This document shows positions 14,700 to 16,741 of a stretch of DNA of 44,715 nucleotides, in pieces. The stretch spans positions 1 through 44,715 of the forward strand of contig LCHW01000004.1 of NCBI GenBank assembly GCA_001000675.1, written 5' to 3'. The stretch comes from Candidatus Wolfebacteria bacterium GW2011_GWE2_44_13 (GTDB lineage Bacteria > Patescibacteriota > Minisyncoccia > UBA6257 > UBA9933). The notes under the pieces are model-generated. The model was not told the DNA's origin. It saw only the letters and a list, made by a program, of their open reading frames with translations, and did not search any database. Numbering within the stretch: the first letter of the stretch is position 1; every line of letters starts with the position of its first letter. Made by a program: the position numbers and the translations under genes.

Positions 14700-14716
14700 G
14701 TTCTGTTAGTGGATTT

Positions 14717-14745
14717 AGTATAGGGCAAAAAGGGGGCGGATGCAA
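14717..14745 (-). promoter_or_regulatory. Promoter of secY
   Basis: Minus strand TTGCAT, 17 bp, TATACT, giving a leader of about 38 nt. Confidence 0.7.
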
Positions 14746-14844
14746 GTTAAATCTTAGTATAATACTTGCTATTCCCGCCGATGACGGAAATCCATCTCCT
14801 TCCACTTTTTTTATAAAAAGTGGAGTAAAAAATCGCGAGCGAAT

Positions 14845-14953
14845 AAAAATAGCGGAATGTTCTCAGAAATTGCTTACGAACTCGAGAACTCGCTTTGCTC
14901 AAACAGCTCGATTTCTGGTGCAATTTCTCTTCGACCATTTTATCCGCTATTTT
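14845..14953. repeat. About 110-bp imperfect palindrome
   Basis: Outer arms AAAATAGCGGA/TCCGCTATTTT, inner arms AGAAATTGC/GCAATTTCT, and a centre with CTCGAGAACTCGC. Resembles a folded non-autonomous repeat. Confidence 0.6.
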
Positions 14954-15057
14954 CACAGGCTCGCACACACAAAATACGAAATGCCTGCGTAAAATAGCCC
15001 ATTTTCTAACGGACTACTACGGGGCAAGGCATTCGACCCGCTTCTCTGCCCCACCCC

Positions 15058-15086
15058 TTGACATAATTTATATAATGTGCTAGAGT
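15058..15086 (+). promoter_or_regulatory. Promoter of paralogue 1
   Basis: TTGACA, 17 bp, TAGAGT. The leader of about 75 nt contains CTCG/CGAG pairing before the SD. Confidence 0.7.
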
Positions 15087-15167
15087 TATTTCAGTTTTTA
15101 TTGCTCTTTAACTTGGACTGCGCTCGTGTTTCGCGAGTGTGGCCCCCACTACCCAAGGAGGCTCCAG

Positions 15168-15812
15168 ATGAGTCAGCAAGTCGGCCCAGACCAAATCGTT
15201 ATCCAGATGAAGCTCCAGGCAAAATACCCGCTCTCGGCGTCTATGCGTCGAGCAGTAAAAAAGGCGGAGGCACCGAAAGTTGCGCCCACGAGGCCGGCCG
15301 GAAAACTGATTTTGGAGGAGAAGGTTGTTAGCTTCTCTCCCCTTCCCCTGATTGCCGACTTCAAGAAAAGCGGCTACCGGATGATCGCTCTTTCCGTTGA
15401 AGAGCGCGGCACGAGGAACAGCACGCACTATATGGTGCGGGCCACCTTCGGCCTGATGAGCGAAGGTGCGGTCGTCTCCGCAAGCTTCCTCGCTCTCCGA
15501 GATGTGTACGAGCGGGATTTCACCGAACTGCTTAAGCGTTCGATCTGGAGCCAACTGCAGGCCTTCGAAAACCCGGTCTTCGAACAGGGCGCGGTTGTGG
15601 AAAGGCGGTACTGGGTCAGCGTCGTTCTCGAAGGTCGCAAGGCTCTTTGGCAGCCCGACGGCACGCTCGTTACCGTGTGGGCGAAAGACGCCAACGACGA
15701 GCGCATCGGAGACGCGCCGCTGCCCCTGAAGCCGAGCTATTGGCTCCGCCTCCGCGGAGACTACCTCGAATTCGAGGAGGCATTCCAGCCGAAAGAATCG
15801 GTTGCCGCATAG
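15168..15812 (+). CDS. Hypothetical protein, paralogue 1 of a tandem pair (214 aa)
   Basis: Unrecognised. The track start (GTG at 15126) lacks an SD; the ATG at 15168 follows AAGGAGGCTCCAG, so I choose it. The N-terminus is basic ('YPLSASMRRAVKKAEAPK'), the rest is a mixed alpha/beta soluble domain with 'SIWSQLQAFENPVFEQGAVV' and 'WLRLRGDYLEFEEAF'. These segments align with the next gene ('AIWRRIRVFSNPIIEDGEEV', 'LFRFTASTLHFEDAV'), so the two are paralogues. GC is clearly higher than in any neighbouring gene. It has its own promoter and terminator and splits the rplO-secY junction on the opposite strand. Function unknown. Confidence 0.82.
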   Translation: MSQQVGPDQIVIQMKLQAKYPLSASMRRAVKKAEAPKVAPTRPAGKLILEEKVVSFSPLPLIADFKKSGYRMIALSVEERGTRNSTHYMVRATFGLMSEGAVVSASFLALRDVYERDFTELLKRSIWSQLQAFENPVFEQGAVVERRYWVSVVLEGRKALWQPDGTLVTVWAKDANDERIGDAPLPLKPSYWLRLRGDYLEFEEAFQPKESVAA

Positions 15813-15835
15813 CAACTACTGCCCCATTGACCTGG

Positions 15836-15865
15836 GCCGACACGCAAGTGTCGGCTCTTTTTTTT
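15836..15865 (+). terminator. Terminator of paralogue 1
   Basis: GCCGACAC-GCAA-GTGTCGGC followed by TCTTTTTTTT. Confidence 0.93.
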
Positions 15866-15878
15866 ACTCATAAAATCC

Positions 15879-15907
15879 TTGACTTCCCACGCTTAATCTG
15901 ACATTGT
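15879..15907 (+). promoter_or_regulatory. Promoter of paralogue 2
   Basis: TTGACT, 17 bp, CATTGT, right after the paralogue 1 terminator. The leader has the hairpin GTCTCA-CAC-TGAGAC before the SD. Confidence 0.6.
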
Positions 15908-15981
15908 TTTATTGTAATTTATTCAGCTCTTTTTCATGTCTCACACTGAGACAAACTTCTACCCCCCTTAAGGAGGCCCCA

Positions 15982-16596
15982 ATGGAACAATCGTACTATC
16001 CAACGATTGGCGTTCGTGTGTTACTTCCGAGCGCTGGTGAGTTTTTGAAGCGAATGACTCATAGGCCGTATAAGGGAACATTCGACTTGCCCGCTCAAGA
16101 ACCACTCCTTGAAGAGTTTGGGAATTTTTCGCCTGCCACACTCCTCACTGACTTAACTACAGCTGAGTACGAGCTCGTTAATGTCGTTTCCGAGTATTGG
16201 CAAACGGGGAAGAAACATCGCTATGCAGCGCAATTCATTTTTTCGCATCGGAATGCGCAAGTTGCTGTTTTACCCTGGTTCGCAAGAATGCGCAGAGGGC
16301 TCGAAATCGAGCTCGAAGAAATACTGCAAGATGCGATATGGCGACGTATCCGCGTATTCTCCAACCCAATCATCGAGGACGGCGAAGAGGTCGAAAAAAT
16401 GTTCGCTGCGAGTATTATACTCGATCAGCGTCACCCATTTTATTCCTACGACGGCGAGCCGGGAATAATGCCAATCATCGACGAGACGGGAAATAAAGTT
16501 GGTGGCGAAATTGCAGTTGAAGCTGAGCACTTGTTTCGCTTTACTGCGAGCACACTTCACTTCGAAGACGCTGTCGTTGGGCAACACAATCCTTAA
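15982..16596 (+). CDS. Hypothetical protein, paralogue 2 of a tandem pair (204 aa)
   Basis: Unrecognised family, homologous to the preceding gene by eye over most of its length: 'FSPATLLTDLTTAEYELVNV' aligns with 'FSPLPLIADFKKSGYRMIAL', and the core IW-x4-F-x-NP and FE(D/E)A motifs are shared. The ATG at 15982 follows TTAAGGAGGCCCCA; the track start at 15904 lies at the -10 box, so it is rejected. The protein is more acidic and the DNA poorer in GC than paralogue 1, which suggests an old duplication or separate acquisition rather than a recent copy. It has its own promoter, leader hairpin and terminator. Confidence 0.82.
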   Translation: MEQSYYPTIGVRVLLPSAGEFLKRMTHRPYKGTFDLPAQEPLLEEFGNFSPATLLTDLTTAEYELVNVVSEYWQTGKKHRYAAQFIFSHRNAQVAVLPWFARMRRGLEIELEEILQDAIWRRIRVFSNPIIEDGEEVEKMFAASIILDQRHPFYSYDGEPGIMPIIDETGNKVGGEIAVEAEHLFRFTASTLHFEDAVVGQHNP

Positions 16597-16602
16597 GCAA
16601 CA

Positions 16603-16628
16603 GCCGCCCTCATGGGGCGGCCTTTTTG
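16603..16628 (+). terminator. Terminator of paralogue 2
   Basis: GCCGCCC-TCAT-GGGGCGGC followed by CTTTTTG. Confidence 0.88.
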
Positions 16629-16636
16629 TTAGGGCT

Positions 16637-16663
16637 CTGGATTCCCGCGTTCGCGGGAATGAC
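16637..16663. repeat. dRS3-like palindromic repeat, single copy
   Basis: CTGG-ATTCCCGCGTTCGCGGGAAT-GAC, between the paralogue pair and the end of rplO. Confidence 0.88.
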
Positions 16664-16705
16664 CCCGTAAAGTCCACCTTAAGCGGACCACGGGGCAAGC
16701 AATAC

Positions 16706-16732
16706 AAAAAAAGGAGCTTGCGCTCCTTTTTT
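16706..16732. terminator. Terminator at the rplO end of the ribosomal operon
   Basis: AAAAAAGGAGC-TTGC-GCTCCTTTTTT. The r-protein transcript therefore ends after rplO instead of reading into secY. Confidence 0.88.
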
Positions 16733-16741
16733 CTCATTCGC

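Follow-up and report, generated by a model that had tools for sequence, protein, structure and literature searches.

Self-contained single-gene cassettes, predicted from sequence, of a previously unnamed Patescibacteria protein family at the rplO–secY junction and elsewhere

Why should two genes on the opposite strand lie between rplO and secY, two conserved ribosomal-operon genes, in the small genome of a member of the Patescibacteria? We addressed this question for a 44,715-nucleotide contig (the window; contig C4 of the 922,656-base genome G000, congeneric with Candidatus Wolfebacteria GWB1_47_1, CP011209.1), in which the two ORFs W1 and W2 lie head to tail on the plus strand of the rplO–secY gap, with rplO and secY both on the minus strand. 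A first-pass annotation had described two such genes, each with its own promoter, leader hairpin, Shine–Dalgarno (SD) sequence and terminator, and both ORFs were found where it had placed them. The locus is composed as follows.

14700..15057, no strand: secY-side intergenic sequence with the secY promoter (minus strand, TTGCAT-17-TATACT) and a palindromic repeat that recurs near the rRNA genes
15058..15086, plus: W1 promoter, TTGACA-17-TAGAGT with extended -10 (TG-N-TAGAGT), strong by its sequence and of the type common to almost all family members
15103..15112, plus: W1 boxA-like element GCTCTTTAAC, 16 nt past the -10
15118..15142, plus: W1 leader hairpin of 11 bp, weak against shuffles (z -1.4)
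15155..15161, plus: W1 SD sequence AAGGAGG, by inspection
15168..15812, plus: W1 ORF, ATG at 15168, stop at 15812, 214 aa, a member of the new family; GC 58.9%
15834..15866, plus: W1 intrinsic terminator, 10-bp stem and T8
15882..15910, plus: W2 promoter, TTGACT-17-CATTGT with TG upstream, weaker and missed by a stricter consensus scan
15926..15932, plus: W2 boxA-like element GCTCTTT, 18 nt past the -10
15937..15953, plus: W2 leader hairpin of 7 pairs, not significant (z -0.9)
15982..16596, plus: W2 ORF, ATG at 15982 preceded by the SD sequence AAGGAGG, stop at 16596, 204 aa, the W1 paralogue; GC 48.3%
16603..16628, plus: W2 intrinsic terminator
16637..16665, plus: REP-like repeat GGATTCCCGCGTTCGCGGGAATGAC in the stretch that separates the cassettes from the rplO terminator, with more than 10 further copies in the window
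16706..16733, minus: rplO terminator, present also in relatives without the insertion

The SD sequences, terminators and promoters of both genes thus held up, the W2 promoter as a weak match, while the leader hairpins fold but do not differ significantly from shuffled sequences. The noted difference in GC content was likewise confirmed, the flanks standing at about 44%. W1 and W2, the sole two family copies in this genome, are indeed paralogues, since BLASTP aligned them at 26% identity over 163 aa (E=1e-17). Their shared motif exists but had been given with the wrong spacing, as it reads IW-x5-F-x-NP and not IW-x4-F-x-NP; the FE(D/E)A end is common to W1 and W2, but is no feature of the family at large. 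An insertion sequence or transposon was rejected because each cassette holds a single ORF with no Pfam match and no terminal repeats were found around either W1 or W2. A toxin–antitoxin module was also dismissed, given that W1 and W2 are paralogous and each has its own promoter, with a terminator in between, and that other members are single genes.

Some repeats at or near this locus were recorded in passing. The palindromic intergenic repeat on the secY side (14800-14980 of the window) recurs at 67-89% identity past the 16S rRNA gene (L028, 2524-2756), and the 27-nt REP-like palindrome is found at many places in the genome. Also in L028 (~1380-1550, contig C5), the 16S rRNA gene seems to have its 3' end duplicated in tandem (GTCGTAACAAGGCACGCGTAGCGG...GGTTTTAA twice), which may be genuine or an assembly artefact.

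We then compared the rplO–secY junction among related genomes, the check that the first-pass annotation had proposed, and obtained two empty congeners and one with a single cassette. In two species of the same genus (G002 and G003) the gap is uninterrupted and spans 93 bp, which supports the proposed insertion, and in most of the remaining surveyed relatives it measures about -5 to 170 bp. A third Wolfebacteria genome, G001, carries one cassette there in the same orientation as W1 and W2. The rplO terminator and secY promoter were located on the minus strand as the annotation had claimed; however, its suggestion that the operon had adjusted to the split fails, because the empty 93-bp gap already holds the same rplO terminator and a secY promoter (TTGCGT-17-TATACT). 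The cassettes thus entered a pre-existing transcription boundary, so that the insertion between two conserved ribosomal-operon genes exploited what was there without forcing the operon to adapt. In the protein tree, W1, W2 and the G001 copy cluster together (support 94/84), as do W1 and W2 (96/91), whereas other arrangements of the rplO–secY copies were not rejected (AU p 0.18 and 0.30). A single arrival at rplO–secY followed by duplication into W1 and W2 is thus moderately supported, with independent arrivals as the other possibility.

The family itself has no tie to this operon, as its members occupy many unrelated loci across Patescibacteria. We gathered 26 members of about 200-250 aa, every one from this phylum and usually one copy per genome, excluding the weak hits L007 (a glycosyltransferase), L025 and L053 and omitting the fragments L037 and L057 from the alignment. 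Of the 244 genomes of the order, 12 gave hits in profile searches, as did 13 of 384 in a class sample and 5 of 380 in a phylum sample (samples that overlap and include a few weak hits), so that carriage is about 1-5% of genomes. When the contigs of 84,980 species were scanned with the closer subgroup as query, matches came solely from Patescibacteria, and no relative was detected in IMG/VR, 50,697 phage records or the plasmids scanned. A single position of the alignment, W127 of W1, is invariant, and six more (G, Y, R, N, R and L) are nearly so. Since close pairs of homologues show dN/dS of 0.17-0.33, W1/W2-type ORFs are real genes, and the substitution pattern establishes purifying selection on the family. 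The annotation had known no family for the two proteins, and the searches agree: against Pfam, NCBIfam, PHROGs and PADLOC the 26 members gave at most isolated weak hits in single members, the best E in a profile search of the PDB was 1.4 with no solved chain matched, and literature searches found no paper on the family. By these comparisons W1 and W2 belong to a previously unnamed family, so far found only in Patescibacteria among the genomes searched.

We next consider how the genes are packaged. Almost every copy is self-contained, with a TTGACA-like -35, a spacer usually of 17 nt, a -10 that is good or extended, some 35-125 nt of leader across the 26 members, an SD sequence, the ORF and a terminator, and in most members GC is above that of the flanks. 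An alignment of four loci from different families placed the onset of similar DNA, for most pairs, 0-9 bp before the -35; the best pairs lost similarity at stop+70, just beyond the terminator. In the closest case (G056 and Athens, 87% over 856 bp), the block runs from start-153 in G056 and start-156 in Athens to stop+70 in both, with the -35 at -152 and -155; in G123, similarity ends at stop+22, ahead of a terminator. These promoter and terminator boundaries could partly reflect selection on those parts. The identified flanks are housekeeping genes (glycogen synthase, a TrmH-type methyltransferase, tsaD, uracil-DNA glycosylase, murD/tpiA, CCA-adding enzyme and rpsA; assigned partly by eye and partly by Pfam), and neither a recombinase among the flanking genes scanned nor, by repeat comparison in the window, a repeat or target duplication marks the cassettes.

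Furthermore, module identity exceeds SecY identity across families (75% against 54% for G056/G085, and 64 against 56 for G056/G319, which have only their class in common), which argues that the units moved laterally. At the level of sequence comparison, this establishes for one, Liptonbacteria-like, subgroup a lateral transfer as a whole promoter-to-terminator unit. Our preferred explanation, in which we place moderate confidence, is that W1 and W2 are two members of a new, Patescibacteria-restricted family carried in autonomous one-gene cassettes that are laterally mobile in part of the family. What functions and evolves as a unit would be a self-contained cassette comprising a sigma-70-type promoter, a short leader (often with a boxA-like GYTCTTT and a hairpin), a strong SD sequence, the ORF and an intrinsic terminator. 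Such cassettes would take up positions at the borders of transcription units, in this case between the rplO terminator and the opposite-strand secY promoter, and for this reason they would need no host signals and leave the host operon unbroken. Once settled at a site, the protein would diverge far faster than its neighbours.

The same divergence admits another reading, namely that these are long-resident, vertically inherited and fast-evolving lineage genes whose patchiness reflects loss. Indeed, a site is retained in two groups and divergence there is steep. W1 and the G001 module share 33% identity, compared with 87% for SecY and 81% for RplO; at a second fixed site, which follows rpsA in five f33-family genomes, the module retains 35-46% and S1 71-89% identity among the four genomes compared, and in the fifth, G437, rpsA lies ~580 bp upstream of the module. 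Vertical inheritance does not readily accommodate the Liptonbacteria-like subgroup, in which the module is more conserved than SecY across families and even orders and the flanks are unrelated, nor carriage of ~5% of genomes or less with two empty congeners. It is therefore largely refuted for that subgroup, and we consider it rather unlikely for the family.

Several further observations concern these sites. Members L117-L121, L126 and L127 are associated with rpsA, downstream of it in the five f33 genomes, convergent to it in G335 and near it in G483, and a tRNA gene stands no more than about 300 nt upstream of five other members. In G478, a second, unrelated orphan cassette (L118, 4423-5151) stands between rpsA and the family member, with a leader that looks alike (CGTTCATTACCAAC compared with CGTTCGTTTCCAACC). 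At L117, L118 and L119 the module terminator abuts the -35 of the following promoter (GGGGCTTGAC...GAGTATAATG), and cassettes may be chained there.

We also analysed the leaders. GYTCTTT, which equals the boxA core, occurs 15-18 nt past the -10 in 10 of the 26 leaders (0.46 in shuffles), and the looser GYTCNTT in 17 (0.9 in shuffles), counts that are not independent because the members are related; both W1 and W2 carry GCTCTTT. The hairpin after the element is strong in four relatives, with four pairs changed on both sides, and its stability is clearly significant against shuffles only in some relatives (z -2.4 to -7). In those four relatives and W1, GCUCUUU is predicted to pair with AAGGAG. 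Rfam searches of the window and six related loci revealed neither a riboswitch nor another type of leader RNA. Through the boxA-like element, cassette expression, which is predicted to be strong, may be connected to Nus factors.

These leaders raise the possibility that the proteins are RNA-binding regulators acting on their own leaders, through a nut-like boxA and hairpin or through an anti-SD helix masking the SD sequence, perhaps with a tie to translation genes. The near-fixed distance of the motif, the conserved hairpin and the predicted pairing would fit such autoregulation, as would the frequent neighbours (tRNA genes, rpsA and rplO/secY), but this neighbour bias is uncorrected for sites that tolerate insertion. 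Against it, GYTCTTT hides the SD sequence no more than expected from shuffled leaders (sum 8.78, against 8.93 in the shuffles), so that sequestration was rejected as a general feature, though some single structures show it. The proteins have no consistent charge (pI 5.1 to 9.8), and the boxA-like motif is absent from the 16S rRNA leaders of the three Wolfebacteria G001, G002 and G003, the G000 leader lying off its contig, which led us to discard an rRNA-type boxA in the genus. On balance, we regard an RNA-binding regulator as unlikely.

The predicted structure offers a different, tentative indication of the role. An AlphaFold2 model of the member from Athens0714_12, built with 26 sequences, reached pLDDT 93.2 and pTM 0.87, superseding an earlier 6-sequence model (pLDDT 65) that gave no usable match. 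The model has, in order, one strand, two helix-strand units, another strand, a long helix and lastly a series of strands, and the proteins are probably single-domain and cytosolic. Foldseek of this model against the PDB and BFVD returned no match at E<=0.001; the fold, as confidently predicted, matches no solved structure. Given the mixed alpha/beta scaffold and the lack of invariant catalytic residues, our best guess, a tentative one, is an accessory cytosolic binding protein. Such a protein would be autonomously expressed and kept only in some conditions, for example in conflict with phages, competitors or a host cell, in a moron-like manner.

The architecture extends beyond this family. The same promoter type was found at 15 sites in G000 and 19 in G001 (controls 2 and 0), and about half of the inspected sites precede different and unrelated orphan ORFs that come with a leader and an SD sequence, so that the layout is broader than the family. 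As a separate observation, at G000 C2:80812 and 83562 (L107 and L109), and at L108 and L114 in G001, the promoter spacer and -10 themselves form a terminator-like hairpin (TTGACAAAGTAGCACCCACGGTGCTACTTTGTTTTTAG), identical before two unrelated orphan ORFs. It is conceivable, albeit speculative, that the W1/W2 family is one example of a whole class of autonomous single-gene cassettes in Patescibacteria. These would move between chromosomes as units bounded exactly by promoter and terminator, with no recombinase of their own, would have a nut-like leader (boxA and hairpin) in common and would encode proteins of new folds that diversify rapidly. These very small genomes nonetheless retain strongly signalled single genes of unknown function, and the delimited cassettes provide a handle on this accessory gene pool, as they can be excised, expressed and tested as they stand.

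Finally, we compared the cassettes with known systems. Phage morons are autonomous promoter-gene-terminator inserts, and the layout of the W1/W2-type units, together with GC above the flanks in most members, might suggest that they are morons or prophage remnants. Like morons, each is a single gene with its own promoter and terminator, as read from the sequence, set between host transcription units, patchily distributed and often unlike its flanks in GC. However, no relative was found in the IMG/VR scan, the 50,697 phage records or the BFVD structures, the flanks are housekeeping genes with no phage genes seen among them, and the units are chromosomal, confined so far to one bacterial phylum and marked by a common leader element; we thus judge a phage origin improbable. 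Integron gene cassettes, which have an attC site and an associated integrase and are usually promoterless, also are one-gene mobile units that code for new folds and can stand in tandem, as W1 and W2 do, but an integron origin is highly improbable, since each unit here has its own promoter and terminator, no integrase was seen among the flanking genes scanned, and repeat comparison detected neither a repeat between or beside the units in the window nor an attC site. As for the leader, suhB provides a known case of a boxA in an mRNA leader, where it is a Nus-factor target (PMC5725501). The family leaders similarly carry GYTCTTT in the 5' UTR of a protein-coding gene, upstream of the SD sequence, whereas several of them, like the 16S rRNA leaders of the genus, are without the motif. 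The family as such is of the conserved, taxon-restricted kind collected in FESNov, a catalogue of unknown gene families of uncultivated taxa (PMC10849945); the putative mobility unit and its leader are characterised here from sequence.
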